NCBI GenBank assembly: GCA_029570205.1
Contig: JAKQSI010000008.1
Span: 10,318 to 74,317, forward strand
Length of the DNA: 64,000 bases
DNA from: Candidatus Omnitrophota bacterium
GTDB taxonomy: Bacteria > Hinthialibacterota > Hinthialibacteria > Hinthialibacterales > JAKPRU01
Reading direction: 5' to 3'
Shown: positions 9,863 through 64,000 of the stretch, one piece after another
Layout of the letters: every line of letters starts with the position of its first letter
Numbering within the stretch: position 1 is the first letter of the stretch
The notes under the pieces: model-generated
What the model was told of the DNA's origin: nothing
The model's database searches: none
What the model saw: the letters and a program-made list of their open reading frames with translations, nothing else
Made by a program: the position numbers and the translations under genes

Positions 9863-10821
9863 AATTCCTCACCTGTTTCCGGTTTTTCAAAACCGATCTT
9901 GTATAATTGGAAGCGCTCAGAGCCTTCCCTTATATACTGTATGGCGTTTACTCCCGCATTCGAACAGCAGTATTTTCGGGTTCCCTCGATTCCCAGCACA
10001 AAAAATGCCGTGGAGAGCGCATCGGTCTCCAGGGCTGTCGGGGCCAGCGCCGTCGCGCTCAACACGCCTTCGGCGGGCCGGCCCGAACGCGGGTTCAGAA
10101 TATGCCCGTAAGTTCTTGTTTCAGCTCGGATAAATCTCTCATAATTGCCCGATGTGGACAAGGAACGGTCCATCAAATGAAGGATCTCAAGATGCCGGTC
10201 AGGATTGAGCGGATCGCGGATTCCCACCTGCCAGCCCTCCTGCTCCGGGGGTGTGCCCAATGCATAAAATGTGCTTCCGCCCGCATTGATGAATGCGGAG
10301 GCGATCCCGTTGCGACGAAGAATCGCAGTGACGGCATCGACGGCATAGCCTTTCCCGATCCCTCCCAGATTGATTTCGATCCCCCGGAGATCAAACCGGA
10401 CCGTCCGCCGTTCGGGATTCAGATGGACATGATCCATGCTCGTTCGCAATAAGGCCTCGGCGAGGGTGTCGGCATCTGGTACGGTCCCCGTTTTGCGGAA
10501 AAACTGCCAGGCCCGCACAAGCGGATGGACGGTAATATCGAATGCCCCGCCGGTTTCTTCATGGAGTTGTTTGCTGAACTGTAGAACATGGAACAACCCC
10601 GGTTCGACAATTACTTCTTCTTGCGCTGCGCGGGCGTTGATCCCGGAGATTTCGCTGGTGATATCGAATACACTTATCTGGTGTTCGAGCCGGTCGATTT
10701 CTTCCAACGCCAGTTCGGCAGCCCAGTGCAGGCGCGCCTTGTTGTCGCCGTATAAAAGCAGAGAAAACTCCGTCGCCATGGCGCGGTGATGCACTTCAAG
10801 GAAGGCAGGATTGGAGGCCAT
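9859..10821 (-). CDS. apbE: FAD:protein FMN transferase (ApbE family)
   Basis: About 320 residues from the ATG at 10821, chosen because an AGAGG ribosome site sits nine bases upstream and homology begins with HHRAMATEFSLLLYG; the open frame extends to 11100 but through repeat-derived sequence. Recognisable blocks are GGAFDITVHPLVR, NLGGIGKGYAVD, the SGNYERF segment and LETDALSTAFFVLG with the metal-binding Asp. ApbE enzymes attach FMN to Thr/Ser of exported flavoproteins. Unusually there is no signal peptide or lipobox, so the protein may act in the cytoplasm. It is coupled to an exported oxidoreductase; no obvious flavinylated target lies nearby. Confidence 0.88.
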   Translation of the reverse strand: MASNPAFLEVHHRAMATEFSLLLYGDNKARLHWAAELALEEIDRLEHQISVFDITSEISGINARAAQEEVIVEPGLFHVLQFSKQLHEETGGAFDITVHPLVRAWQFFRKTGTVPDADTLAEALLRTSMDHVHLNPERRTVRFDLRGIEINLGGIGKGYAVDAVTAILRRNGIASAFINAGGSTFYALGTPPEQEGWQVGIRDPLNPDRHLEILHLMDRSLSTSGNYERFIRAETRTYGHILNPRSGRPAEGVLSATALAPTALETDALSTAFFVLGIEGTRKYCCSNAGVNAIQYIREGSERFQLYKIGFEKPETGEEL

Positions 10822-11641
10822 CGACTTCATCCTCTGGGGGTGATACAGAATAAAAATCATTGAATCACAGGCTTGCACGAGCGCCAATGGGCGGTCCCAT
10901 CCTAAAAAATCTCGCCCACAACCGCCCTTGCGAGCCTTCCTCCGGCGGAACCGGTGATTGGGTGAAGAAACGGGCTGAAGCTGGGGCCACCGGCAAGATG
11001 CCGGCGCCACCCGGCAAATCCCCGATAATCGGGTGGCACAGGCTTCCAGCCTGTGGTTGTTTCTAAGGAGCGAAGCGTGGCAATCTAATTGTGGGCGCAT
11101 AACAAGGACGAGAACGCCACGTCGCAGCCCTTCGCAGACTCCGGGCGGCTCCTCCTAAGAAATCTCGCCCATCGACAGGCACGGAGGCCTGTCCCACCAG
11201 TAGGCCAGGCGTCCCTGCCTGGCAGCTAACCAGTAGGCCAGGCGTCCCTGCCTGGCAGCTAACCAGTAAACCAGGCGTCCCTGCCTGGCAGCTAACCAGT
11301 AGGCCAGGCGTCCCTGCCTGGCAGCTAACCAGTAGGCCAAGCGTCCCTGCCTGGCAGCTACCAGTAAACCAGGCGTCCCTGCCTGGCAGCTACCAGTAAA
11401 ACCAGGCGCCCCTGCCTGGCAGCTAACCAGTAGGCCAGGCGTCCCTGCCTGGCAGCTAACCAGTAGGCCAGGCGTCCCTGCCTGGCAAAGAAGGGCGGAA
11501 AACACACTTTCTTCACCCAATCACCGGCTCCGCTGGAGGGAGGCTCCAATTCACCGCACTTGACCTGGAATGTTTCACCTGTTTGACTCGTTGACCTTCG
11601 ATTGCCTGAGTCAAAGGCACGGAAAAAAGCAGGAGTGAACC
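10822..11641. other. Gene-free region built of repeats
   Basis: About 820 bases with no credible gene. It holds a degenerate module end (10905-10971), hairpins of the GGCAAGATGCCGG and GGCTTCCAGCC types (10985-11062), a fragment of the GCGAAGCG-TGGCAATCT dispersed repeat (about 11069-11088), and the first tandem-array module (11115-11547). Confidence 0.8.
11115..11547 (-). repeat. Repeat module 1 with 33-bp tandem hairpin array
   Basis: A 433-base module whose ends and internal array are matched, in opposite orientation, by the module at 17468-18195. The array (11198-11487) has nine units of 32-34 bases. Each unit carries an inverted repeat CCAGGC-GTCCCT-GCCTGG and a short CAGTAGG/CAGCTAAC linker. 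One end has a related hairpin, ACAGGC-ACGGAG-GCCTGT. Sporadic base changes and one- to two-base indels distinguish the units. Because 33 is divisible by three, the array is open in several frames and yields meaningless 11-residue peptide repeats. Confidence 0.9.
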
Positions 11642-12967
11642 ATGAATCGAGCGGCAGGGCAAAGTGAGGGAGGTTCCGGTGTTCCGGGTGTTTCCCGGAT
11701 TCAGATGTGGCTGGCGCTTGTCGCGGCATTGCTGGGATGGATGTTCGATGGAATGGAGATGAGCATTTATGGAGTGATAGCCCGGCCTGCCCTGATCGAT
11801 CTCATGCCGGGCCACACGGATGCCGAGGTAAAGTGGATTTTGAGCCTGACCTTTGCGCTGTTTTTGTGGGGCGCGGCAGTGGGCGGTGTGATTTTCGGGC
11901 GGTTGGGAGACAAGATCGGCCGTGTGCAGACCCTGATGCTGACCGTATTGGTATATGCCGGATTTACCGCCCTGTCGGCGTTTGCGCATAATTGGCAGCA
12001 ACTGGCCATTTGCCGATTCATGGGGGCATTGGGCATGGGGGGCGAATGGGGCGCAGGGGTGGCGTTGATTATGGAGACGTGGCCGGAAAAGAATCGCCCT
12101 CTGCTGGCGGGGCTTGTCGGCAGCGCCTCCAATGCGGGCTTCTGGATTGGGGCCACGCTGGCACGGATTATTCAGGGGATTGCAGATTATGAGTCGAGCT
12201 GGTTTCAATCCGTTATCCCCATTGAGAGTATGGCGCAGAGCTGGCGATGGGTACTTCTGGCGGGGATTTCCCCGGCGATCATTGCGATTCTGGTCCGACT
12301 CTTTGTAAAAGAGCCGCCGCGATGGATTCAGTCCAGGGAGAAGAAAGAATCGTCCTCATTGCGCGAGTTGTTTTCGCAACCGTTCTTACGGGAGACAGTT
12401 TGCGCCTCCCTGCTTTCGACGGTGGCACTATTGGGAACCTGGGGTTCGTTTCTCTGGTTGGCCTCTTATGTAAGCAGCATTACCGTCGAGCCGAGTGCGC
12501 CGGGCATCGTGGCGCAGTGGCAGGGGTATGGACAGGTTGTGGGCGGCATACTGGGCGGTTTGGTGGGATATTGGATCAGCCGTCGGACCTCCTACGCCGG
12601 GCTGTGTGTACTGGCCTGGGCCTCTGTTGTCGCGCTATACGGATTGCACAATGAATTTGGGATGTCTATGTGCCTGTGGGGGATTTTTGCGGGCCTGTGG
12701 GTCACCGCGTTTTTCGGCTGGCTGCCGCTTTATATTCCCGAACTGTTCCCGACCCGGATTCGAGTTACCGGAGAAGGCTTCTGTTACAATGTCGGGCGGA
12801 TCATTGCGGGATTCGGGGTCCTTGGAGCGGGCGCTCTGGCCGGGATGTTCGGCGAGGGGGCGCAGGGATTTCAAAAAGGAGGAATGGTGATGGCAACAAT
12901 TTACCTGTTCGGTTTGATCGTGATCTATTTCTCCCCTGAGACCAAAGGGAAACCGCTTCCGGATTGA
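11642..12967 (+). CDS. MFS transporter (sugar acid / aromatic acid symporter type)
   Basis: A 441-residue integral membrane protein with about 12 helices. The segment MFDGMEMSIYG in helix 1, the loop motif GRLGDKIGR between helices 2 and 3, and RFMGALGMGGEWGAG in helix 4 match the MHS/AAHS/sialate branches of the major facilitator superfamily. The C-terminal half repeats the pattern with YIPELFPTRIRVTGEGFCYNVGR, typical of that group. It should move an organic acid or sugar derivative with protons. An AGGAG ribosome site precedes the ATG. It stands alone on its strand next to the repeat module. Confidence 0.88.
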   Translation: MNRAAGQSEGGSGVPGVSRIQMWLALVAALLGWMFDGMEMSIYGVIARPALIDLMPGHTDAEVKWILSLTFALFLWGAAVGGVIFGRLGDKIGRVQTLMLTVLVYAGFTALSAFAHNWQQLAICRFMGALGMGGEWGAGVALIMETWPEKNRPLLAGLVGSASNAGFWIGATLARIIQGIADYESSWFQSVIPIESMAQSWRWVLLAGISPAIIAILVRLFVKEPPRWIQSREKKESSSLRELFSQPFLRETVCASLLSTVALLGTWGSFLWLASYVSSITVEPSAPGIVAQWQGYGQVVGGILGGLVGYWISRRTSYAGLCVLAWASVVALYGLHNEFGMSMCLWGIFAGLWVTAFFGWLPLYIPELFPTRIRVTGEGFCYNVGRIIAGFGVLGAGALAGMFGEGAQGFQKGGMVMATIYLFGLIVIYFSPETKGKPLPD

Positions 12968-12982
12968 GGCTCGTGGACCCCG

Positions 12983-13047
12983 TAGGGGCATGGCATGCCA
13001 TGCCCCTATAGATCTTGGGACACCCAGTAGGGGGCACATGGCCCTAC
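12983..13047. terminator. Palindrome pair after the MFS gene
   Basis: A perfect 26-base palindrome (12983-13008; half-site TAGGGGCATGGCA) lies 16 bases after the MFS stop codon, followed by a GTAGGG...CCCTAC hairpin (13027-13047). Position suggests transcription termination or mRNA end protection, but no T-run follows. Confidence 0.45.
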
Positions 13048-13155
13048 AGGGTCCGAAGCCGGTAGCATTCAATTCCATCCCGGAATTGGGAATAATGCTC
13101 AGAATCATTCCAAAGGTCTGATTCGGATGTGTACTGGAACGAAAGGATCTGTTCC

Positions 13156-13995
13156 ATGCATAAACGCCGTCTTCTGACGGGATTGGCTGTCATTCCGGTT
13201 TTTCTGGTGTGTCTCTTTCACCCACTCGGGAGGGAGTTTACCCTTCTGGCAACCGTCCTGTTTGCGACCCTGTCGGCAGTCGAGCTATGGCGGATTCTGG
13301 TGGATGACGACGGCAAGGTCGTGTTTTGCGGATTGCTTGTGGTGATTTGGGGATTGTTGCTCGCCGCCTATTTTCGTTCCATAGACGGAACGATTACCGT
13401 TTTGATTGTCGGGACATGGTTTGTGAGTTCCTTGTTGATCGCAGCGGGGTGGCGAGATGGCCGTCGGATTCTGTCCTCGGCGTATTTTCTGGTTTTTTAT
13501 CTTGCGGCTCCGCTGGCGACGCTTGTGGCAATTCGTACCTCGGATGTCGGCGTTCAGCTCACGGGTTTTGTCATGCTGGTTTCGTGTGCCTGTGATACGG
13601 GCGGATATTACATTGGTTCCTTTTTCGGACGGAGAAGATTGGCGCCGGCTCTCAGTCCGAACAAGACGGTTGAAGGTGGGATCGGCGGATTGTTGTTTTG
13701 CCTGCTGGGTGTGGCCGTTTGGGGGTTTCTCCAGGGATACTGGGTCGATCCCGGTCACTTATTCTGGATGTCATTGGAACCGATGGCGTGGATGAAGGTC
13801 TTGGCTCTGGCGCTTATTGTGGGAGTATTGGCGCAGGTCGGCGATCTACTGGAATCCATGCTGAAACGGGACGCGGGGGTGAAAGATTCCGGCAATAATT
13901 CGACGGGGCACGGGGGATATCTGGATATGTTGGATTCTCTGTTGTGGGCCTCTCCTGCCATGTTTCTCTTTGCTGTCCTGACCGGCCACCTGTGA
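13156..13995 (+). CDS. cdsA: Phosphatidate cytidylyltransferase CdsA
   Basis: A 279-residue membrane enzyme that makes CDP-diacylglycerol from phosphatidate and CTP, the entry to phosphatidylglycerol, cardiolipin and phosphatidylethanolamine synthesis. Multiple hydrophobic helices are followed by ALSPNKTVEGG and the CdsA signature (SMLKRDAGVKDSG then GHGGYLDMLDS near the C-terminus). The signature normally has Arg where this protein has Met (GHGG..DRxD). The ATG at 13156 (MHKRRLL) is preferred over 13129 because of an AAAGGA site eight bases upstream. The gene stands apart from its usual neighbours uppS, dxr and frr, and converges on the O-antigen ligase gene 22 bases away. Confidence 0.9.
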   Translation: MHKRRLLTGLAVIPVFLVCLFHPLGREFTLLATVLFATLSAVELWRILVDDDGKVVFCGLLVVIWGLLLAAYFRSIDGTITVLIVGTWFVSSLLIAAGWRDGRRILSSAYFLVFYLAAPLATLVAIRTSDVGVQLTGFVMLVSCACDTGGYYIGSFFGRRRLAPALSPNKTVEGGIGGLLFCLLGVAVWGFLQGYWVDPGHLFWMSLEPMAWMKVLALALIVGVLAQVGDLLESMLKRDAGVKDSGNNSTGHGGYLDMLDSLLWASPAMFLFAVLTGHL

Positions 13996-14017
13996 ATCAG
14001 GGGTCAAAAATCGGGAG

Positions 14018-15490
14018 TCAGGGATTGGGGACTGTGGCGGGCTGCAACGGATGAGATTCAGGGGCCGGTTCGGAAGGTTCTCGATTCCAATTCTCGCCCA
14101 ATGATTGCTGTGCCAGCCTTGTGCAACACGGGACTAATCCGAGCAACAACCAAAGGCTCACTCCGATCTTGTCCGAAGGTCCCAAATTGTTGAAAAAAGC
14201 ATGAACCAGCAGGGAAATCATGGCGCCCTTGGCCCCGGCCAGGGTGCAGGAGATAAGGGGATCGCGCTCTCCCGGATCCTGTACCGTGGCCTCGCGGAAG
14301 AACAAATACAGCATAATCAGAAACGCGCTGATTCCGATGACACCGGTTTCGGCCATGATCTCTAGATACAGATTGTGCGCACCCATACGCAATTCTTTGG
14401 AGTAAGCCATCCGGTACACAACATACTTGGGATACACGTCCGGATAGGCCCCGTATCCGACACCATGGATCGGTTCATCTTTCCACATGCTGATTGCCGC
14501 CAGCCATCGGTCCAGGCGGTCGTAATTGGCCACATAGCCGATGTCGGCGATGGTTCGCGCACGCTCGATCACGAGTTTTCCGATGTCGGTGGATAGAATT
14601 ACCACTACAGCGAGAAGGTCCAAAATCAGGAAAACCAGAAGGAGGTTCACGCCGGCCGATTTCTTGCGGAAATGCAGCAGAAAATACAACAACATGAACG
14701 CCACACTGATCCAGGCGGCCCGCACAAAAGTCAGCCCTACCGCCGCTGCCACCACGAGCGCCGCCAGATTCACCAGGGTGGCATAAATCCCCCGCAGGTA
14801 TCCCAGCCCGAATGAGATCAGGAATGACAACGAGATCACCAGGTAAGCCGCATAGATGCAATGATTCTCAAAAAACGGTTGGGCGATCTCATCGTAGATC
14901 CGAATCCCACCGACGGCCTGGGTTCCCAATCCGTACGTCACCAGAAAAAAGTGAACCACGCCGCAGGTCCAGAACAGAACAATCAGGCGCTTGCGATTTG
15001 TTACAAATAATTGCAGAAGAACATACCCGCCGAAAATGTATCCCGAATCCCGGATTAACGCTTTCACGGTACTGATCGGCTCGCGGGTAATCAGCAGGGA
15101 TGCATACATCACGAACACATACAATCCCAGCCCCATATTGAGGGGGGATCGAATGTATCGCAAGCGACCGGTCAACAGGATCACCAGCGCCGTGGAGACG
15201 AACAGAATGGGCAACAATCCTTCGGTCGGCAACGTGATGGCATGAGTTCCGCCTCGGAGGTCGATTTCCACGGAAAATGCGATGAGGGCATAAAAAGCGA
15301 GGATCAGCCATTCCCGCAGGAATGTAAAAACGATCACCACGACCATGGCGCCCATCAAAGCGATCAGGATTTTTGGACTGGAGCCGAGGACGGCCATAGC
15401 CAGGGCGAACGGAATCAGCCATACGAGGAGACGCAGATCAAGCGATTGCCGGAGGGATTGCACAACAGATTGAGCCTTGTTCATTTCCAT
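14018..15490 (-). CDS. O-antigen ligase / polymerase family membrane protein
   Basis: About 490 residues with 10-12 hydrophobic helices and the Wzy_C hallmark in the long periplasmic loop: RLDRWLAAISMWKDEPIHGVG followed by AHNLYLEIMAETGVIG. Such proteins ligate undecaprenyl-linked glycans to lipid A core or another acceptor, or polymerise repeat units. The frame is open to 15574, but the region upstream of the ATGs at 15490/15484 (MEMNKAQ) is repeat sequence, so the start is placed there. A Wzz-like gene begins 370 bases away on the opposite strand, so the two divergent genes probably share a surface-polysaccharide role. Confidence 0.85.
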   Translation of the reverse strand: MEMNKAQSVVQSLRQSLDLRLLVWLIPFALAMAVLGSSPKILIALMGAMVVVIVFTFLREWLILAFYALIAFSVEIDLRGGTHAITLPTEGLLPILFVSTALVILLTGRLRYIRSPLNMGLGLYVFVMYASLLITREPISTVKALIRDSGYIFGGYVLLQLFVTNRKRLIVLFWTCGVVHFFLVTYGLGTQAVGGIRIYDEIAQPFFENHCIYAAYLVISLSFLISFGLGYLRGIYATLVNLAALVVAAAVGLTFVRAAWISVAFMLLYFLLHFRKKSAGVNLLLVFLILDLLAVVVILSTDIGKLVIERARTIADIGYVANYDRLDRWLAAISMWKDEPIHGVGYGAYPDVYPKYVVYRMAYSKELRMGAHNLYLEIMAETGVIGISAFLIMLYLFFREATVQDPGERDPLISCTLAGAKGAMISLLVHAFFNNLGPSDKIGVSLWLLLGLVPCCTRLAQQSLGENWNREPSEPAPESHPLQPATVPNP

Positions 15491-15859
15491 CCCCGCCGTG
15501 ATTCTCCCCCTTGTGAACCTGCCCCACCCCAGCCCTCCCTGTAAACGGGGAGGGAGCAAGGACTTTCCCCTCATTTACCCACATTCTTTTCCCCGTTTAC
15601 TCAAATGTTGTCCCCCCGTTTACGGGGGGATTGAGGGGGTAGCGGTCGACAGGACCCTCACACCGGCTCTCTCCCGCAGGATTAGAGAGGGAGAAGTGGG
15701 TGGCACAGTCTTCCAGCCTGTAGCTTCGACCGATTTGTGGACGCTACCGAGGCGGCATGTGTGTGTCAATGGAAGGGGTAAGCGCCGCTTGACGATTTCC
15801 ACGGGACCACGCATCATTCCCCTGTAGTAAGTCGAGCCACTCCAATATAAAGGTGTCCC
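15491..15859. repeat. Intergenic palindromic repeats between ligase and Wzz genes
   Basis: Non-coding. It contains CCCTCCCTGTAAACGGGGAGGG (about 15533-15555), CCCCCCGTTTACGGGGGG (about 15612-15630) and a GGTGGCACAG-CTTCCAGCCTG stretch (about 15697-15722) also present near 11033. A promoter for either divergent gene was not recognised. Confidence 0.65.
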
Positions 15860-17422
15860 ATGAACGCCACACCGCCTGCGTATGACCTGATCTCTTCGCT
15901 CCGAATTCTGTATCGACGGCGGAACCTCATTGTTGTCGGAACCTTTCTGATGACGGTGGTGGTGGCCATTGCCAGTCTGGTCTGGCCTCAAACCTGGCGA
16001 GCGGAGAGTTTTATCCTGGTAACAACGCCGGAGTTCAAGAATAAGTTGACTCTTCTTTCCCGGCCCCTGGATGTTGTGGCTTACCGAAGCCTGTTGGCCG
16101 ATCAGGCGATGCTTTCCACCGTATTGGAATGCCTGCGCTGGATGAACACCAATCTTCAAACCGTCTTGAACGATCCCGGCAAGAAGAAAATCCTCCTGGA
16201 AAACCTGGGGCTGAATGAAGGCGAGATCGACAATTATCGCCTTATTGAACGAACGAATTTGCCGAAACTGGCACGGGTGATATTCGAGGGAGCGCCGGAA
16301 TTGTATTCGGAGGGAGCGGAGAGTCCGGGGTTACAGGACTCTTCCGATGTCCGGGTACGGTACTTGCGGCTTATCAGCCAAATGAACGCGGATGAAATCG
16401 AAGCGGTTGTGACCATGGACGCACAGTTCCTGGCCGATCTGACCATATTCGATTTGAGAAAGATGCTTTCCGCAACAGTGACTAAGGTGAAGGAGACCAA
16501 TCTGGAAACGGAATACTCACCGATTATTGATGTAAAAGGCGAGCTGGATACGGCTGCCGGGGCGAAGATGATCACGAACCTGTGGGTCCGCTGTTTCCTG
16601 GATCGAGTGGAGCAGATTGTCCGGCAGGAGATTTTGAACCGGACAGGCCGGGTGGCGGAACGCGCCAGGGAGATCGACGAACAGCTGCAGAAAGCATACC
16701 AGGCGCTTCATGACTTGCGGGCCTCTTCCGCTGTCGATGACCTGAAAGCGGAACTGGTCTCCAAACGGCTCCTGCTGTACGGGGTGGCGGAAACCCGCTC
16801 GGACCGCTCCGAGAAACAGAATGAGTTCAATCTGGAGGAGGAAAGTCTTCCGTTTCTGAGGGAATCTCTGCGTCACGAGTTGCTGACTTCATTTGAGATG
16901 CAACCCAACTACCCGGATGCGCTTCTCCCGCGACTTGCAGGAATGGAGAGGGCGCTTCAAGAGAAGAGAGCGCTTTTGAAACAGTTGGAGAGCGGAGAGG
17001 CTTCTTTAGAGCAAACTTCCAGTCGCAAGGCCAACCTGGCGGCCGAAATTGCCGAGATGGAAGTATCGACAAAGGAATTTCGCAACCAGACCACGACTTT
17101 AAGCGGCGAAATCAACGACCTTCGGGGACGCGTGGAAACAGGGGAATCGGAACTCGAGGCATTACGCCACGAAATCACGATGCTGGAAAACCAGGCATCG
17201 ACTCACCAACGGCTGGTTCAGGAAGCGGATATGTTGATCGGCGGTATGAAAGAGGGCCAACGCTTCTCCGATGTTCAGGCAGGAACCGCCGTGAAACCCG
17301 ATAAGCGGGTGTCTCCGAAGCGGACATACATGACCCTTGGTGGAATGGTTGTAAGTTTTGTTCTCCTGTGCGGATTGGCTTTCTTCCTGGAAATCTGGCC
17401 GAAAATCACGGAAGAAGCCTGA
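15860..17422 (+). CDS. Wzz/GumC-like polysaccharide co-polymerase
   Basis: A 520-residue protein with the layout of polysaccharide co-polymerases: a short cytoplasmic N-terminus, a first membrane helix (about 23-45), a long periplasmic part with strong coiled-coil character (roughly 200-450, rich in Glu/Leu/Arg heptads) and a second helix near the C-terminus (about 490-512) preceded by a Pro-containing VSPKRTYMTLGG motif. These proteins set glycan chain length or organise export with a Wzy or Wza partner. There is no fused tyrosine kinase domain. It is divergent from the O-antigen ligase-like gene. No other capsule gene is in the window. Confidence 0.8.
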   Translation: MNATPPAYDLISSLRILYRRRNLIVVGTFLMTVVVAIASLVWPQTWRAESFILVTTPEFKNKLTLLSRPLDVVAYRSLLADQAMLSTVLECLRWMNTNLQTVLNDPGKKKILLENLGLNEGEIDNYRLIERTNLPKLARVIFEGAPELYSEGAESPGLQDSSDVRVRYLRLISQMNADEIEAVVTMDAQFLADLTIFDLRKMLSATVTKVKETNLETEYSPIIDVKGELDTAAGAKMITNLWVRCFLDRVEQIVRQEILNRTGRVAERAREIDEQLQKAYQALHDLRASSAVDDLKAELVSKRLLLYGVAETRSDRSEKQNEFNLEEESLPFLRESLRHELLTSFEMQPNYPDALLPRLAGMERALQEKRALLKQLESGEASLEQTSSRKANLAAEIAEMEVSTKEFRNQTTTLSGEINDLRGRVETGESELEALRHEITMLENQASTHQRLVQEADMLIGGMKEGQRFSDVQAGTAVKPDKRVSPKRTYMTLGGMVVSFVLLCGLAFFLEIWPKITEEA

Positions 17423-17467
17423 GCGAAAGACATTCTTCCCGCGCCCCGGTTCCTGTCCCGTCATCGC

Positions 17468-18195
17468 GAGCCTCCCTCCAGCGGGGCCGGTGATTGGGTG
17501 AAGAAAGTGTGTTTTCCGCCCTTCTTTGCCAGGCAGGGACGCCTGGCCTACTGGGTAGCTGCCAGGCAGGGACACTTGGCCTACTGGGTAGCTGCCAGGC
17601 AGGGACACTTGGCCTACTGGGTAGCTGCCAGGCAGGGACGCCTGGCCTACTGGGTAGCTGCCAGGCAGGGACACTTGGCCCACTGGGTAGCTGCCAGGCA
17701 GGGGCGCCTGGCCTACTGGTAGCTGCCAGGCAGGGACGCCTGGCCTACTGGTTAGCTGCCAGGCAGGGACACTTGGCCCACTGGGTAGCTGCCAGGCAGG
17801 GACGCCTGGTTTACTGGTAGCTGCCAGGCAGGGACGCCTGGCCTACTGGGTAGCTGCCAGGCAGGGACGCCTGGCCTACTGGGTAGCTGCCAGGCAGGGA
17901 CGCCTGGCCTACTGGGTAGCTGCCAGGCAGGGACGCCTGGTCCACTGGGTAGCTGCCAGGCAGGGACGCCTGGCCTACTGGGTAGCTGCCAGGCAGGGAC
18001 GCCTGGTCCACTGGGTAGCTGCCAGGCAGGGACACTTGGCCTACTGGGTAGCTGCCAGGCAGGGACACTTGGCCTACTGGGTAGCTGCCAGGCAGGGACG
18101 CCTGGCCTACTGGTGGGACAGGCCTCCGTGCCTGTCGATGGGCGAGATTTCTTAGGAGGAGCCGCCCGGAGTCTGCGAAGGGCTGCGATGTGGCG
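17468..18195 (+). repeat. Repeat module 2 with 18-unit 33-bp hairpin array
   Basis: A 728-base module, the inverted counterpart of 11115-11547, with the same two ends (ggtgattgggtgaagaaag side and the agattt-cttaggagga side). The array (17528 to about 18115) has 18 units: stem GCCAGGC, loop AGGGAC, stem GCCTGGC, then a CTACTGGGTAGCT-type linker. Units differ at few positions, notably a recurrent ACTTGGC arm that replaces GCCTGGC (five or more times) and CC/TT/TC changes after the stem. There are no unique spacers between units, so this is not a CRISPR array. Confidence 0.92.
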
Positions 18196-18305
18196 ATCTC
18201 AGGTTTGTGCGCTCGGAATGACCAGCACGCGTGTTTTCTTGGGAACAGCCTATCCCGACGGAAAAAGGATTCTCCTTTTTCGGCTGCTTTCCCCGATTCT
18301 TCTGG

Positions 18306-18311
18306 TATAAT
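18306..18311 (+). promoter_or_regulatory. Extended -10 promoter of rnpB
   Basis: TGGTATAAT places a consensus -10 box (18306-18311) with the TGn extension about seven bases before the start of the RNase P RNA. No good -35 box is seen. Confidence 0.65.
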
Positions 18312-18317
18312 GTAATC

Positions 18318-18716
18318 GCGGGGAGGAGGAGACGGTCGCGAAAGGGAGTGTTCCCTTTCGAGGAAAGTCCGGACTCCACAGAGCAGGATGCTGGGTAACA
18401 CCCAGGCGGGGTAACCCGACGGAAAGTGCCACAGAAAACAAACCGCCTCCTTTCCGACGAGCCATCGACGGAAAGCCAAGGTAAGGGTGAAAAGGTGGGG
18501 TAAGAGCCTACCGCGGTTCCCGGTGACGGGACCGGCACGGAAAACCCCGTCCGGAGCAAGACCAAGTAAAGGGGATATGGGGTTGCTCGCTTCATGCTTC
18601 CGAAAGGAAGCGTCCCCGGGGTAGGTCGCTGGAGGCAATCGGGAACGATTGCCCGAGAGAAATGACCGTCCTCCCACACTCAGGGAGACAGAATCCGGCT
18701 TATCCCTCCTCCCCGC
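18318..18716 (+). ncRNA. rnpB: RNase P RNA, bacterial type A
   Basis: The catalytic RNA that removes 5' leaders from pre-tRNAs. The outer helix P1 pairs GCGGGGAGGAGG with CCTCCTCCCCGC at the two ends. Between them are the invariant blocks GAGGAAAGTCCGGACTCC, CACAGAGCAGGATG, the GGGTAACACCC region, GACGGAAAGTGCCACAGAAA, GGTAAGGGTGAAAAGGTG, AGAGAAATGACCGTC and, near the 3' end, ACAGAATCCGGCTTAT. The full complement of peripheral helices fits the type A fold at 399 bases. Its last ~37 bases overlap the coding end of the antisense receiver-HisKA gene. Confidence 0.97.
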
Positions 18717-19420
18717 TTTTCCGCATCCCCCTCTTTTATATTCGGTTCCTCTCCTTCCGAGGCCAGATCCAGGTCGATGATATTTGTGTTTGTTGTATAG
18801 TCCTTTATTTGATACCGTCGGACTCTCTGGATTTTCCTGACGATTTCAGCGGAACGTTGGGCGGCTTCATGGACCTGCTGGAGGACTCTGCGATTTTCCC
18901 CGTCGGCTTTTCGGAGCAGCATCTGGGTGTATCCGATCAACACGGTCAGTGGCTGCGCCAGTTCGTGACATACGGCTGCCGCCATTTCGTACACTCCCCG
19001 CGATCGTTCTGCATCAACCAACTTGCGCTGGAGCTCGGAGATTCGCAATTGCGCCCGGATTCGCGCCAACAGCTCCTCGAAATTGAATGGTTTGGTAACA
19101 TAGTCATCGGCCCCTTTGGTAAACGCATCAACCTTGTCTGTTACCTCGGTTCGAGCCGACATCATAATTACCGGCAGAAAGCTTTTTTCTCGGATTTCCC
19201 GAATGCGTTCCAGAACCTCCAAACCGCTCATCCCCGGCATCATCAAGTCCAACAAAATCAGGTTGGGGGGCGCTTCTTCCACCATATCAATCGCTTCGGA
19301 TCCGCTTTGGGCGCCGGCCGTTTCATATCCTTCCTTCGACAGCCGTCTCAGCACCAGAGATTGACTGACAACATCGTCATCCACAACGAGAATACGAATC
19401 GGTCGGTTTTCGTTGTTCAC
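18680..19420 (-). CDS. Response regulator receiver domain fused to a HisKA domain
   Basis: From a GTG at 19420 the protein is 246 residues; the frame also allows a GTG at 19432, used for numbering here. The receiver domain has the acidic pair D18/D19, phospho-acceptor D62 (LILLDLMMPG), S92 and K114. It is followed by a helical linker and a HisKA dimerisation helix with H-box His156 (AAAVCHELAQPL). No ATP-binding HATPase domain follows; the C-terminal ~50 residues are polar and low in complexity. It may be a phosphorelay intermediate that needs a kinase elsewhere. The 19420 start overlaps the folD stop as GTGA. The 3' end runs 37 bases into rnpB on the other strand. Confidence 0.85.
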   Translation of the reverse strand: MNNENRPIRILVVDDDVVSQSLVLRRLSKEGYETAGAQSGSEAIDMVEEAPPNLILLDLMMPGMSGLEVLERIREIREKSFLPVIMMSARTEVTDKVDAFTKGADDYVTKPFNFEELLARIRAQLRISELQRKLVDAERSRGVYEMAAAVCHELAQPLTVLIGYTQMLLRKADGENRRVLQQVHEAAQRSAEIVRKIQRVRRYQIKDYTTNTNIIDLDLASEGEEPNIKEGDAEKRGGGISRILSP

Positions 19421-20280
19421 TTCACATGCCACCGTGCTGCCTGAAGAGTGTTGGAAAGAAGCATTGTGATGGTCATCGGACCCACGCCGCCCGGAGACGG
19501 ACTGATTGCCGACGCGATTTCTTTCGCCTCTTCAAAGGCGACGTCTCCGACCTGGACATTTTTGCCGTTTCGTTTGATGAAATTCGTCCCGACATCAATC
19601 ACCGTGGCCCCCGGTTTGATCGAATCCGCCCTGACAAATTCCGGTTTACCGATGGCCACAATCAGCACGTCTGCATTACGGCACTCGCCCGGAAGATCGA
19701 CGGTTCGGGAATGGCAAACCGTGACTGTGGCGTGTTCCCGCAACAGCAATTGGATCATCGGCTTGCCGACGATATTGCTGCGTCCGACGACAACGGCGCG
19801 TTTCCCCAACAGCGGTATTTCATAGCGCCGCAACATTTCGATAATGCCCATCGGCGTACAGGAAACCAGGCATTCCTGCCCGATGCACAGATTACCGACA
19901 TTCAGCGGGTGGAATCCGTCCACGTCTTTCCGTGAATCGACTGTGCGAAATATGGTGGCCTCGTCGATATGTTTCGGCATTGGATGCTGAACTAGAATCC
20001 CATCGATGAGGTTATCTCGGTTGAAGAACTCGACCAGGTCAATCAGGTCTTTCTGGGAGGTTGACTCCGGAAGATGCTCCTGGCGTGAGAAGAATCCGAC
20101 TTCGTTGCACGCCCGAGCCTTATTGCGCACGTATATCTTGGATGCGGGATCATCTCCGACCAGGATCACAGCGAGACCGGGTGGTCGCCCATGTTCGCGC
20201 AGGAAGATCTCGGTATCCCGCCGAATCTCCTCACGGATTTGTCTCGCCAGGGCCTTGCCGTCTATGATCGTCGCGGGCAT
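19417..20280 (-). CDS. folD: Methylenetetrahydrofolate dehydrogenase / cyclohydrolase FolD
   Basis: A 287-residue bifunctional enzyme that interconverts 5,10-methylene-, methenyl- and 10-formyl-tetrahydrofolate, feeding purine synthesis and formyl-Met-tRNA. Diagnostic features are Y50 and catalytic K54 in KIYVRNKARACNE, the DGILVQHPMPKH block, the NADP-binding GRSNIVGKP segment and the PGGVGPMTITML motif near the C-terminus. A GGAGGA ribosome site precedes the ATG at 20280. The neighbouring divergent gene is purF, which uses the same one-carbon-dependent pathway. Confidence 0.97.
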   Translation of the reverse strand: MPATIIDGKALARQIREEIRRDTEIFLREHGRPPGLAVILVGDDPASKIYVRNKARACNEVGFFSRQEHLPESTSQKDLIDLVEFFNRDNLIDGILVQHPMPKHIDEATIFRTVDSRKDVDGFHPLNVGNLCIGQECLVSCTPMGIIEMLRRYEIPLLGKRAVVVGRSNIVGKPMIQLLLREHATVTVCHSRTVDLPGECRNADVLIVAIGKPEFVRADSIKPGATVIDVGTNFIKRNGKNVQVGDVAFEEAKEIASAISPSPGGVGPMTITMLLSNTLQAARWHVK

Positions 20281-27260: not shown

Positions 27261-27287
27261 CGATCTCCACAATGATTTTCGGACCGG

Positions 27288-27307
27288 ATTCCGGCGTTCG
27301 CCGGAAT
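27288..27307. repeat. ATTCCGGC palindromic repeat
   Basis: ATTCCGGCG and CGCCGGAAT form a 9-bp stem around TT. The same family, with variable loop, occurs at 57325-57344, 58080-58100, 58296-58315 and 58534-58553, usually followed by GACGG or preceded by CGTC. Confidence 0.8.
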
Positions 27308-27346
27308 GACGGATACTTTCCCTCTGCGAACAATGTTGAGGCTGCA

Positions 27347-27819: not shown

Positions 27820-30363
27820 TTATTTCACTCCGAGAGAAACCTGCTCGGGCGCTTTGGGTTCTTCGGGCGCCTGGGGAGCCTTTTCGGATTTCTCTGCTTC
27901 TTCGCCTTCTCGGATCTTGCTGATATAATGCGCTTCAATTTCAGCTGTGACTTTGACTCGCTCATCCGGGAGGCTTTCGATCTCGAGTTCATTGATGGTA
28001 CCGATTCGGTTTCCGTATTCCAGTTGGTTCAGGAATCGCGCGTAGGATTTTACATCCGATTCGAATTCCAAACCTGCTGCTCTTTTGATGTAATAATCCT
28101 CCCCATTACTTCGTGCCGTCTCGTTCTGAGTCTCAATGATCTCCGCAGGAATTTCGCCGTCGGCTTTCGCCTTTTGCCACGCCAGGATTTTGTCGATTTC
28201 CTTTTCTTTCTGAGTGAGTACCTCTTTCAGGCGTGTACCCATCAGACGATCCCCGGTGGTTGGGTCATACAACCAGGCGGGTGGCACAGGCAGTCCCATG
28301 ATGCCCATACCCATGCCCATCATGCCCATACCGCCCATTCCTCCGCGCATTCCGCCGCCCATCCCCATCCGTCCCATTGCTCCAAAGGTTTGTTGGAATC
28401 CACCGGAGGCAATTTGGCGCTTGAGCTGGATCAGTGTTCGCTTGACCAGCATGTCTTGCATGGCTGCTCCCATTCCTCCCATCCCCATCATGCCCATGCC
28501 CATCATGCCCATGCCCATGCCCATGCCGCCCTCGACTCCATCGGGAAGAACAGTGTTGATCAACTCCTCTATTTGGCGATAGAAATAGTTGCGAACTTCG
28601 TCATCGGTCACCGTGTAGCTTTCGCCCCGGTTGCTCAGGCGGGTCACAGCAGCAACCTTCTCATCAATGGCCTGTTGGCAGAGAGACTGGGCCAACTCCA
28701 CAAATCTCAGGGTCATATAGACTTGGCGCGTGTTTTCCTCCGGCACCTCAAACATGCCTGTAAGGGTTTGATAGTTCAGGTTTGGCCGTGCCAGACTCTT
28801 TTCAAAATAATCCATTGAGTGGATTTTTTTGACGGTTCGATAGGTTGGGTCTTTTCCAGCAAGGAATTCTGCATCCAGGCCCATAGCTTTTCGGACGTAA
28901 TTGTATTCACGTTCTTGAGAGATGCGGATAATTGCATCATTCCGAGGATCGTTCTTGGTTCGTTGCCGGGTGATCAGTTGGGAGTGAAAAACCGGCAATT
29001 GGGTTGGTTCGGGATATTCGTGATCGCAATGATCGACAATGGTGCTGTTGGCGTCTTCTTTTGTCGGCGCATTGGCTGCGCCTGAAGAGGGGTATCGAAC
29101 GGTTTTGGAGATTCGAATTTCATCGATCATCGACTCTGCGCTGAACTCGTTTTTCTCCGTAGCTCCAAAAAAGATTCCTTTGATTTCGCCGGGTTTGGCG
29201 ATGCCAATACCCTCTCGAAGAGTTTTTCCAACGACGGAAGCCATGCCCATGGGCTGGCCGGGTGTGTACTCACCCCTCATGCCCATACCACCCATGCCAT
29301 AGCCCCCCATGCCCATCATGCCTCCCATGCCAAGGCCCCCCATACCCATCATGCCCCCCATGCCCATCATGCCTCCCATACCGAAGCCCCCCATCCCCCC
29401 CATCCCATAGCCGCCGCCATAACCCACACCAAAATCCACGTCCACAGCGCTTCGGATGGACACCAGCGGCTGACCGGGAATTCCCTTATTCGCCCCATTG
29501 ATATAAAAAGCCTGCTGATTGTCCGCCCATACAGCGCAAATGTAGTACCACTGATCCTGCTTCCAATCGGCGATCGGCGTGTACAAGTGGCTCAGTTGTC
29601 CTTCGCAGTTACGCAGTTCATAACAGATTGTCGGACCTTCCCCTTTATATATGGCAATGTAGCTTTCCAGCTCATAAGGAGGCTGTCCGGTGAATGTTGC
29701 GAATGGATTGATCTCCCGCGCATCTTCCATGCTTTTGAACAGGCGTTGTCCGAGAGCCAGAAAGAAACACTTTGTTTTGACCTTCTCGTCCATCGGGTCC
29801 CAACCGATTTTCAGCAGAAACTCGACTGTTCCCTCTTTTTCATCCAGAGGACGCACTCCGGACCCGGTGAAATTGGTGTACGTTCGGGTATGGCCATCAT
29901 AGGCCCGGAGAGCGGAGCCGAATTTCCCCTCTCCCAATGAGGGATTCACTCCCCATTCGTGTGAGACTTGCAGTTTGGTGACGTTAGAGGTTTCCTCTAA
30001 TTGCGATACTTCATTGATTCGCTGAAGGAGCGTGCCCCGGTAATCCGCTTCGGGCTGAAAGTCATCCAGGAGGTTGTATTTTTCGGCGAGAGTCTGGTAG
30101 TTCTGTTTGTCCTTGCTTACCATTTCCTGAAGCCTCTTCAGCTCCTCGGCAAGGCCGGACTCCAGGTCTTTCAGGAGGCCATCTTGAGCGCCGCCACCGC
30201 CGGCGAGTCCGAGAACAGTTTTATAGGTCCGGGTGCCGTTCTGGATTTCCGTCTTGACCTGATCCCATTCCGATTTCATAGGAGCAAATACGAACAGATG
30301 AAGAACGGCCAGGATTCCCACAAATACCGCGATAAAAACGATCAGTTTAAGATTTTTCTTCAT
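27820..30363 (-). CDS. Gly/Met-rich membrane-anchored LamG-like protein
   Basis: 847 residues. An N-terminal signal anchor (about 5-27, LIVFIAVFVGILAVLHLFVF) is followed by a coiled-coil stretch, then a beta-rich region with LamG/concanavalin-like features (GKFGSALRAYDG, WYYICAVWADNQQAFYINGA, IDEIRISKTVRYP). The region is interrupted by a long tract of GMGGM-type repeats (about 314-364); two more Met/Gly tracts lie near 606-634 and 658-694. A helical C-terminal region ends in Glu/Lys/Pro-rich sequence. The ATG at 30363 has GAGGAG eight bases upstream and overlaps speD by 17 bases, so the two are coupled. Function unknown; Met-rich tracts can bind copper or form low-complexity surfaces. Confidence 0.85.
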   Translation of the reverse strand: MKKNLKLIVFIAVFVGILAVLHLFVFAPMKSEWDQVKTEIQNGTRTYKTVLGLAGGGGAQDGLLKDLESGLAEELKRLQEMVSKDKQNYQTLAEKYNLLDDFQPEADYRGTLLQRINEVSQLEETSNVTKLQVSHEWGVNPSLGEGKFGSALRAYDGHTRTYTNFTGSGVRPLDEKEGTVEFLLKIGWDPMDEKVKTKCFFLALGQRLFKSMEDAREINPFATFTGQPPYELESYIAIYKGEGPTICYELRNCEGQLSHLYTPIADWKQDQWYYICAVWADNQQAFYINGANKGIPGQPLVSIRSAVDVDFGVGYGGGYGMGGMGGFGMGGMMGMGGMMGMGGLGMGGMMGMGGYGMGGMGMRGEYTPGQPMGMASVVGKTLREGIGIAKPGEIKGIFFGATEKNEFSAESMIDEIRISKTVRYPSSGAANAPTKEDANSTIVDHCDHEYPEPTQLPVFHSQLITRQRTKNDPRNDAIIRISQEREYNYVRKAMGLDAEFLAGKDPTYRTVKKIHSMDYFEKSLARPNLNYQTLTGMFEVPEENTRQVYMTLRFVELAQSLCQQAIDEKVAAVTRLSNRGESYTVTDDEVRNYFYRQIEELINTVLPDGVEGGMGMGMGMMGMGMMGMGGMGAAMQDMLVKRTLIQLKRQIASGGFQQTFGAMGRMGMGGGMRGGMGGMGMMGMGMGIMGLPVPPAWLYDPTTGDRLMGTRLKEVLTQKEKEIDKILAWQKAKADGEIPAEIIETQNETARSNGEDYYIKRAAGLEFESDVKSYARFLNQLEYGNRIGTINELEIESLPDERVKVTAEIEAHYISKIREGEEAEKSEKAPQAPEEPKAPEQVSLGVK

Positions 30364-56954: not shown

Positions 56955-57306
56955 CCCGGATTTCTCACGGGAGCCATTTTTAAAGGCCACCTGTTATGGC
57001 ATAAATAGAGTTGCGGTAACAACTTATCGTATGCCAAGAAGGTGACCTTATGAAAACAGAGTGTACAGGAACGTTATTCGATTTTCAACCGTTGGAGAAG
57101 CGGGAAGTGGTGGCCTCCTTTGATGGAGGAACGATCACATCGGATGCAGGCAGGCTGCTGTTGCGGGAGGTGGAGCAGCGGTGCGGCTTTCTCCGTTTAT
57201 CCTGACTTGCACGGTCCCCTTTCTTCAAGAAACCACTCGGCGCGATTATTCTCACGATATGCAACGGGTCTCACCCCTCTTCTGACAGGCTCGTGAGAAA
57301 TCCGGG
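56955..57306 (+). mobile_element. MITE-like derivative of an IS1380-family element
   Basis: A 352-base element bounded by 17-bp inverted repeats (CCCGGATTTCTCACGGG at 56955-56971; CTCGTGAGAAATCCGGG at 57290-57306; one mismatch). Inside is the start of an IS1380-type transposase gene, fused after ~48 codons to the right-end sequence. Flanks show no exact target duplication (ttag / atag). A second copy of the right end lies at 63872-64000 in the opposite direction. Confidence 0.75.
57050..57205 (+). pseudogene. Truncated IS1380-family transposase
   Basis: 51 codons beginning at ATG 57050: FDFQPLEKREVVASFDGGTI then TSDAGRLLLREVEQRCGF, the N-terminus of IS1380-type DDE transposases (which continue for ~400 residues). 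The frame ends at TGA 57203 after LRLS, where the right terminal sequence begins. The internal ~1.2 kb of the gene has been lost, so it cannot mobilise itself. Confidence 0.8.
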
Positions 57307-57324
57307 ATAGCCCAGGGTCCCGTC

Positions 57325-57978: not shown

Positions 57979-58338
57979 ATCGTTCTCCTTATCGTATTAC
58001 GACTATCCTATCGATCAGGAGAAGTCAAGGCCGTTGTGCTTTGTCGGTTTTGTGGAGTAAGAGTGCCGCAGGGGGCGTCATTCCGGACTTGATCCGGAAT
58101 CCAGGGTCTGAACCATGATTCACGGCATTGTCTGAACCTCGATCTACTTGATTTGAGGATTATCTCGATATTCTTTATCCTTCTTTTTCTTCATCAGGGT
58201 CATCCCGTAATCAAGCGAATCATGGTTCAGACAATCCGGTTCTCCGAAGGCCGCGATATCCGGGTGGCACCGGCATCTTGCCCGTGAACCTCTGGATTCC
58301 GGCTTGCGCCGGAATGACGGCACAATCCCCCTCTCCCG

Positions 58339-58479: not shown

Positions 58480-58648
58480 GGATTTGTTCCCCCCCTCAAT
58501 CCCCCCGTAAACGGGGGGAGGAATTCGGCCTGGATTCCGGCGTGCGCCGGAATGACGGTGGAGGTGGGCTGAGATTTCTCCCTTTGGTCGAAATGACAGG
58601 CCTATTTGTCATTCCGAACGAATGTGAGGAATCTCGGCAAATCCTGAG

Positions 58649-58704
58649 ATCGCCACATCGCAGCCCTTCGCAGACTCCGGGCGGATCCTCGCGATGACGG
58701 GGCG
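58649..58704 (-). repeat. End fragment of the tandem-array module
   Basis: About 40 bases (GCAGCCCTTCGCAGACTCCG core) match the module ends near 11125 and 18170, here without an array and continuing into CTCGCGATGACGGG, which also borders module 2 on its other side (CCCGTCATCGCGAG, about 17457-17470). Confidence 0.7.
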
Positions 58705-62636: not shown

Positions 62637-63871
62637 ACGATACAAAAGAATCAATTCTGGAACGACTGAAGAAAGATGCCGGTATCGGTGATGGGCTGGA
62701 TCGTCTGGGCGCAGATTATCCGGGGGTTCTGCAACTTTACTTGGATCTCTTTGCGGATCATCCCTGCCTGGAGACCGTGGCTGCGCCGATTTTCCAGGCT
62801 TATATGGCGATAGTCCGTTGTTTTGATGACGGCGGGACACTTTTTGTCTGCGGAAACGGCGGCAGTTTTGCCGATGCAGCCCACATCACAGGGGAACTGC
62901 TGAAGGCATTCGAGCGGAACCGCCACCTTACGGAGGAAGAGCAGAAAGCGTTTGCCGGACTTCCGTATGGCGAGGACGTCGGCAAACAGCTGGAGCATGG
63001 ATTCCGCGCCGTGGTTCTGGGTAATAATGCCGTGCTGGCATCGGCGGTGTTGAACGATTTCTCCATGGCCAATATGCATTATGCCCAGGAACTCTATGCG
63101 CTATGCCGAAAGGGTGATGTCCTGATCGGGATCAGCACCAGCGGCAATGCCCGCAATGTCATGTACGCCATGACCACCGCACGAGCAGCGGGTGTCAAGA
63201 CAATCAGCCTGACAGGGCAAGGCGGCGGAGAGATGGGACAATTCGCCGACATCGCAATCAAGGCTCCGGGGACACGAACACTGAAAATCCAGGAGTTGCA
63301 TCTCCCTGTTTACCATACGCTCTGTCTAATGATCGAAGATCATTATTATCCGAAGGCAAGGGTCCCGGCTGAACCGCCCAAAGGCAGCGTGTTGGATTTG
63401 GATACGCTCGCTTCCGCCATCGACCGGCTCAAAGCGCGCGGACGGAGAATTGTCTGGACAAACGGCTGTTTTGATATTCTTCACATGGGCCATGTCCAAT
63501 ATCTCCGAAACGCCAGGGAGCAGGGCGATATTCTGGTGGTCGGGATCAACAGTGATGAATCCGTGCGGGCGTTGAAAGGCGAAGGAAGGCCGATCATCCC
63601 GGAACGTCACCGCGCCGAGGTGCTTGCCAGCCTGGGTTGTGTGGACTACGTGACCATTTTCAGCGACATGGACACGGTTCGGCTGCTGGAACGCCTGAAA
63701 CCGCACGTCTATGCCAAAGGCGGCGATTACGATATCAACAGCATTGTCCAGGTGGAGCGCCGAGTTGTAGAGAGTTACGGCGGCGAGATCCGTATCCTTC
63801 CCCTGGTGCAGGATGCCTCCACCTCGCGGATCATCAGCCGGATCACCACCGGCGCCCAGCTGAAGGGATAA
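62633..63871 (+). CDS. Fused sedoheptulose-7-P isomerase (GmhA) / heptose nucleotidyltransferase (HldE-C)
   Basis: 412 residues. The first ~245 form a SIS domain of the GmhA type (CGNGGSFADAAHITGELLKAFE, STSGNARNV, LTGQGGGEMGQFADI). The last ~160 form an RfaE2-type nucleotidyltransferase (TNGCFDILHMGHVQYLRNA, with HxGH; GINSDESVRALKGEGRPIIP; YAKGGDYD). Together they would supply ADP- or GDP-heptose for LPS or glycans; the middle kinase (HldE-N) step is missing here. The ATG at 62633 overlaps the MNT stop. An IS-derived end starts directly after its stop. Confidence 0.92.
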   Translation: MNDTKESILERLKKDAGIGDGLDRLGADYPGVLQLYLDLFADHPCLETVAAPIFQAYMAIVRCFDDGGTLFVCGNGGSFADAAHITGELLKAFERNRHLTEEEQKAFAGLPYGEDVGKQLEHGFRAVVLGNNAVLASAVLNDFSMANMHYAQELYALCRKGDVLIGISTSGNARNVMYAMTTARAAGVKTISLTGQGGGEMGQFADIAIKAPGTRTLKIQELHLPVYHTLCLMIEDHYYPKARVPAEPPKGSVLDLDTLASAIDRLKARGRRIVWTNGCFDILHMGHVQYLRNAREQGDILVVGINSDESVRALKGEGRPIIPERHRAEVLASLGCVDYVTIFSDMDTVRLLERLKPHVYAKGGDYDINSIVQVERRVVESYGGEIRILPLVQDASTSRIISRITTGAQLKG

Positions 63872-64000
63872 CCCGCATTTCTCACAAGCCTGTCAGAAGA
63901 GGGGTGAGACCCGTTGCATAACGCGAGAATAATCGCGGCGAGTGGTTTCTTGAAGAGATGAGACCATGCAAGTCAGGATAAACAGAGAAACCCGCACCCC
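63872..64000 (-). mobile_element. End of a second IS1380-derived element (runs past the window)
   Basis: In reverse orientation it repeats the right end of the element at 56955-57306 with ~90 % identity by eye: the terminal repeat CCCGCATTTCTCACAAG (63872-63888), the CCTGTCAGAAGAGGGGTGAG stretch and, near the edge, CAGGATAAACAGAGAAACCC, which corresponds to the transposase fusion point (57187-57207). The rest lies outside the window. Confidence 0.75.

Follow-up and report, generated by a model that had tools for sequence, protein, structure and literature searches.

Probable expanded clusters of GTAG-tagged REPs in two inverted modules of a Candidatus Omnitrophota genome

The stretch of DNA analysed here, 64,000 nucleotides long and referred to as the window, contains two modules in opposite orientation, each with a tandem array of short hairpins. 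The modules are very probably separately landed, tandemly multiplied clusters of GTAG-tagged REPs (BIMEs), with a RAYT, a domesticated transposase encoded elsewhere in the genome, as their likely disperser. The core of each module is a BIME in which two REPs, named Y and Z, are inverted with their tags inside and 2 bp apart. Such composite, non-autonomous elements occupy many intergenic sites, and at some of them one partner, usually Z, has multiplied head to tail. An opposite orientation of the modules is what two independent insertions would produce in half of all cases. The modules are a striking example of an already known type of repeat, found in a lineage that has been little studied, rather than a new genetic switch.

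Architecture of the two modules

Module 1 (11110-11547) and module 2 (17468-18200) hold 9 and 18 copies, respectively, of a hairpin unit of ~33 bp. The first-pass annotation had described two inverted modules with shared ends and these unit numbers, and its description was confirmed by TRF, by a unit scan, and by arms that are 91-94% complementary. TRF delimited period-33 arrays at 11196-11487 (8.9 copies) and 17527-18113 (17.8 copies), and the unit scan resolved module 1 into one Y and 9 Z hairpins and module 2 into one Y and 18 Z hairpins. The inverted arms 11110-11362 and 17948-18200 are 94% complementary, and the arms 11361-11546 and 17468-17653 are 91% complementary. The two hairpin types are Z, GTAGGCCAGGCGTCCCTGCCTGGC, and Y, GTGGGACAGGCCTCCGTGCCTGTC. 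A Z unit consists of GTAG, a 7-bp stem with a 6-nt loop, and a linker, and it folds as a hairpin. In each module, Y is inverted relative to Z, so that the tags face each other with 2 bp between them.

Module 1 begins with end A (11110-11173, plus strand), which is an inverted match to module 2 and is also dispersed alone, as seen in solo matches to query 1-60 in the sister genomes. It continues with the inverted Y (11174-11197, minus strand), whose tag, GTGG, lies beside Z, with the array of 9 Z units (11200-11486, plus strand), which was delimited by TRF, unit scan and hairpin fold, and with end C (11487-11547, plus strand), again matched in inverted orientation in module 2. Module 2 consists of end C (17468-17527, minus strand), 18 Z units (17528-18110, minus strand), Y (18113-18136, plus strand), and end A (18137-18200, minus strand); its ends were assigned by inverted match to module 1, its array by TRF and unit scan, and its Y by unit scan. 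Ends A and C are thus common to both modules and inverted between them. The linkers of both arrays are 12-13 nt long and near identical inside each array, and both arrays are spanned by the contig. Repeat comparison within the window also revealed an inverted copy of end C to the left of module 1 (10935-10973, minus strand), and this copy and 11508-11547 form inverted arms of ~40 bp each that enclose the module 1 insertion. A loose end fragment without an array, earlier placed near 58649-58704, was found at 58646-58690 (plus strand) as a solo end A without REP units, with 93% identity over 45 bp.

Module 1 lies between an ApbE gene (minus) and an MFS gene (plus), i.e., between divergent genes. 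Module 2 is located between a Wzz-like gene and the RNase P RNA gene (18320-18718), which was recognised by its Rfam match just beyond the module; there was no Rfam match to any other known structured RNA. As a whole, the composite element folded barely better than shuffled sequences (z -1.9). The genes bracketed by the modules (11642-17422) were characterised by Pfam and by comparison with the sister genomes, and they are not part of the element. Pfam supports the earlier names for the MFS, CTP_transf_1 (cdsA-type) and Wzy_C O-antigen ligase (minus strand) genes, while the protein called Wzz had no Pfam match at 1e-5. Beyond the features given in the first-pass annotation, the analysis added a Y hairpin in either module, GTAG tags, the RNase P RNA gene and a family spread over the genome.

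Other repeats are also present in the window. A 134-nt inverted repeat (57180-57313 and 63865-63998, 6.5 kb apart) is 90% complementary. Tandem CATGCC/CCCATG repeats of several periods occupy 28310-28536 and 29267-29412 and perhaps encode a Met/Gly-rich protein stretch. A further dispersed palindrome, GGATTCCGGCGTGCGCCGGAATGACGG, occurs at 27278-27312, 58286-58320 and 58524-58558, and its other strand ends in CGTC.

A genome-wide family of GTAG-tagged repeats

The source genome (G000) is an Omnitrophota-labelled MAG of 4.39 Mb in 131 contigs. The Z hairpin has 482 matches in it with at most 2 mismatches, compared with 0 for the reversed control, which is far from chance. The regions examined contain at least 49 arrays of no fewer than 3 units, which together hold 476 units and reach 20 at most, and at least 30 places with one or two units; these counts are lower bounds, as they come from chosen regions rather than whole genomes. 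GT[AG]G stands at the foot of a 20-40 nt palindrome that folds as a hairpin, as in a GTAG-tagged REP, and of 672 units, 483 carry the tag GTAG and 116 the tag GTGG (599 together). High copy number, dispersal and a mainly intergenic location, which belong to the same definition, were observed as well. With ORFs as a stand-in for genes, only 7 of 59 elements lay inside an ORF (one extending 150 nt on both sides), compared with 91 of 177 random placements (p = 4e-8). No strand bias was detected by GC skew, with which 33/59 elements agree. BIMEs are inverted REP pairs, often in tandem, and here, beside the numerous arrays, 38 of the 40 places that hold both Y and Z have them strictly opposed.

Among 161 distinct units, stem pairs were kept in 91%, versus 85% in shuffles, and 59 double changes occurred in the stem, versus a shuffle mean of 20; the shuffles ignore the relatedness of the units. 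At stem pair 2, Z has C-G and Y has A-T, and a third form has T-A.

A composite with a single Z unit, 184 bp long and built as A + Y + one Z + C, exists at or near full length in G000 and in two other genomes of the genus, G001 and G002; the array is therefore most readily understood as a dispersed composite element that has expanded internally. The earlier suggestion of an expandable MITE-like element was essentially right: the element is palindromic and non-autonomous, it is dispersed, and its number of units varies by site and among sister species. Three kinds of growth were distinguished: y Z^n, which accounts for most cases, y^n Z (L137, L149), and repeated pairs or mixed groups (L099, L127, L141). 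The main period of the arrays ranges from 25 to 40 bp by locus because the linkers differ. Ends A and C also occur solo in many copies in all three genomes, with A most frequent in G001. The solo ends A (query 1-60) and C (query 133-184) carry GTCATCGCGAG-like termini and may be CGTC-type repeats.

There are 13 contig ends no more than 60 bases away from an array or element, and one G002 contig bridges the ends of G000 contigs C108 and C117; unit numbers at such contig-end places are therefore lower bounds. The family is present in 3/3 genomes of the genus and in 0/28 more distant genomes. Among named genomes, the exact hairpin matches were to MAGs labelled Candidatus Omnitrophota. A phage origin was rejected, as viral contigs contained no exact hairpin match.

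Orthologous sites in sister genomes

The comparison covers the three genomes of the genus, two of which are fragmented. The window modules are not shared by the sister species. Contig C298 of G002 is collinear with window 10181-19715 at 92-96% identity; it has 41 bp instead of ~850 bp and no element at the site of module 2, and only a hairpin built from the two outer arms at the site of module 1. In G001, site 1 has no element, and at site 2 there is a single yZ element that differs from module 2 and has the opposite orientation.

Other loci provide similar contrasts. At a third site, the G000 element is absent from G002 (L124 vs L056). Orthologous elements take the forms yZ and yZ6 (L133 vs L061) and yZ17 and yZ9 (L095 vs L058), and the RAYT gene described below is flanked by 13 and 9 units in one genome versus 5 and 1 in the other (L129 vs L153). 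The pair yyyZ and yZZZ (L149 vs L051), of which the G000 side begins at a contig end, shows that different partners have been amplified at one locus in two species.

The first-pass annotation had named as grounds for doubt a genome without further copies and close relatives without both modules. Both sisters are indeed without these two modules, but further copies abound in the genome. The annotation had also allowed for an assembly duplication; this was rejected, as the two arrays are unlike in their linkers and in their internal variants.

The RAYT transposase

Three Y1-type genes reached the Pfam cut-off in G000. NCBIfam NF047646, with its cut-off of 80 bits, marks two of them as RAYTs (86.6 and 96.4 bits); the remaining gene, on C51, is an IS200-type transposase. 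The likely disperser of the Y and Z units is the RAYT (TnpA-REP, a HUH single-strand nuclease) on contig C89 (L129:5015-5527, 86.6 bits), which lies between arrays of these very REPs. The arrays on its two sides contain 12 and 8 Y units, and one inverted Z-like unit is present in each. Its orthologue in G002 (contig C302) is 90% identical and has canonical Z units on both sides, so that the gene is flanked by cognate REPs in either genome. The motifs DHVH, WQ and YISKNP, read from the sequence, agree with the family and with the HUH/Y---NP pattern. The protein is weakly similar to E. coli TnpA-REP (4er8, E 0.03) and has D and R at the positions of E. coli E100 and H101. D and R at these positions have been described for RAYT subclasses 2.5 and 2.7 (PMC6006769), and by motifs, rather than by a tree, the C89 RAYT appears nearest to subclass 2.7 or 2.5.

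The RAYT would act on single-stranded DNA, where it would recognise a hairpin and its tag, make a cut next to it and rejoin it. In other species, TnpA-REP cuts single-stranded REP at CT (or CA) (PMC8266576). The C89 RAYT probably moves the units described here. Points against this model are that the flanks of the gene in G000 are mostly Y, whereas Z is the abundant unit, that the linker of the window arrays is missing from their own flanks, and that GC skew shows no strand bias. No RAYT was found in G001, where the absence may be a gap in a fragmented genome. Z hairpins number 482 in G000, 157 in G002, and 32 in the RAYT-negative G001. Published work has linked RAYT presence with REP number (PMC2817692), and the counts fit the direction of this link, although three genomes, two of them fragmented, cannot establish it; the difference is no independent test of the RAYT role.

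The other RAYT (L130:4818-5774, on G000 contig C48) lies beside a 48-bp-period array of another hairpin, GGCGGGAGCTGACGCTCCCGCC, of which the genome has 35 copies. The gene and this array are a second REP system, and the C48 RAYT was rejected as a partner of Y and Z because of this different hairpin array of its own. A RAYT-like gene was also observed in another family of the same order (L154:1973-2252, G004 contig C71), where it is followed by tandem arrays with 13- and 15-bp periods.

Growth of the arrays and alternative explanations

Array growth would come from strand transfer by the RAYT, from slippage and recombination, or from both. The strongest alternative, to which we give only slightly less than an even chance, is that the REPs were spread by a RAYT in the past but that changes in array length are due entirely to replication slippage and to unequal recombination at the hairpins, with no part for the RAYT in array growth. 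Linkers are identical in 36% of comparisons within arrays and in 3% between arrays. The linker came wholly from the flanks of the same array in 6 of 27 clean-ended arrays, against a permuted mean of 1.1 and a maximum of 5. This points to a REP having been duplicated in place together with adjoining DNA, as the alternative expects. The AGCTA-type linker, however, is common to many loci where the flanks lack it, and the two window arrays are among them. In the window arrays, the linker AGCTA(A/C)CCA is unexplained by their own flanks, and AAAGAAGGG follows the last unit. Simple in-place duplication therefore fails to explain the window arrays, and since this linker is shared by many loci yet absent from their flanks, units or arrays also seem to move between loci. 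It also speaks against slippage and recombination alone that few arrays were found in G001, in which no RAYT was detected. Slippage, recombination and RAYT strand transfer could each contribute, and the data do not separate them. That the RAYT itself drives in-place growth, and can amplify either partner of a REP dimer, is a rather unlikely idea: one locus could then have amplified Y in one species and Z in its sister, and arrays would record RAYT activity by locus and lineage.

A second possibility, which we regard as doubtful, is that the arrays have been co-opted for regulation or structure, as sites for gyrase or another binding protein or as RNA hairpins for transcript termination or stability. 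The hairpins are stable, and such roles have been reported for REPs and BIMEs elsewhere (PMC8266576, PMC3733652). The strong intergenic bias would agree with co-option, but it is also expected from selection against insertions in genes. Moreover, the modules are missing at orthologous sister sites despite the same neighbouring genes, and 16 of 59 elements, module 1 among them, lie between divergent genes.

The earlier proposal that the modules serve as recombination sites flipping the 11.5-17.5 kb segment is highly improbable: homologous recombination between long inverted repeats with 91-94% complementarity is possible in principle, but the MFS-cdsA-ligase-Wzz block has one order and orientation in 3/3 genomes (a single contig of G002 and collinear pieces of G001), although the sisters are themselves without the repeats; no recombinase gene is associated, and dozens of other copies lie in either orientation elsewhere. 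A CRISPR array, which the first-pass annotation had rightly set aside, was rejected for the want of unique spacers.

Significance

REP dissemination is still described as unresolved (PMC8266576). The genus offers a natural experiment, as it contains related genomes with and without a detected RAYT, with empty sites, single dimers and arrays at orthologous loci, and with one locus at which different partners have been amplified. A full-text search of the papers covered for REPs and Omnitrophota found no earlier report, which is weak evidence of novelty, and the REP/RAYT system is extended here to a lineage for which no such report was found. Such arrays can also end contigs in metagenome assemblies, as is seen from the 13 contig ends in or beside arrays. 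The kind of repeat is well explained; the testable point is whether the RAYT drives in-place growth of either partner, which we consider improbable.

Comparison with known systems

The C89 gene resembles the RAYT/TnpA-REP genes of REPtrons (PMC6006769, PMC8266576) in its NF047646 match, its DHVH, WQ and Y---NP motifs, its single copy, and its position between REPs on both sides that are dispersed in the same genome. The lineage is absent from the published RAYT surveys examined (PMC6006769, PMC8266576). A difference is that the C89 RAYT shows only weak similarity to E. coli TnpA-REP. From REPINs the elements presumably differ, in that the partners here are different in sequence, their tags are inside and 2 bp apart, and one partner often multiplies alone. 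REPINs (Bertels and Rainey 2011, PMC3116915) share with them a non-autonomous, REP-built nature and a RAYT elsewhere in the genome.

The closest likeness is to GTAG REPs and BIMEs (PMC3733652; Nunvar 2010, PMC2817692), which likewise have GTAG or GTGG at the base of a short hairpin, many copies and an intergenic location. GTAG REPs are known from several phyla, including PVC bacteria (Di Nocera 2013, PMC3733652). They form inverted dimers whose partners are 1-2 bp apart, their dimers can be inserted in palindromes, and single REPs or dimers can be repeated in tandem along with flanking DNA to give clusters (PMC3733652); here, too, inverted dimers at 2 bp, tandem reiteration and dimers within other palindromes were found. 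Unlike in the known cases, the stem and loop sequences are unseen outside the genus in the genomes searched, one-partner arrays reach ~20 units, the composite carries two further dispersed repeats as its ends, and sister species differ in the amplified partner. The main features match the description of Di Nocera 2013 (PMC3733652), and the Y/Z family therefore belongs to that kind.
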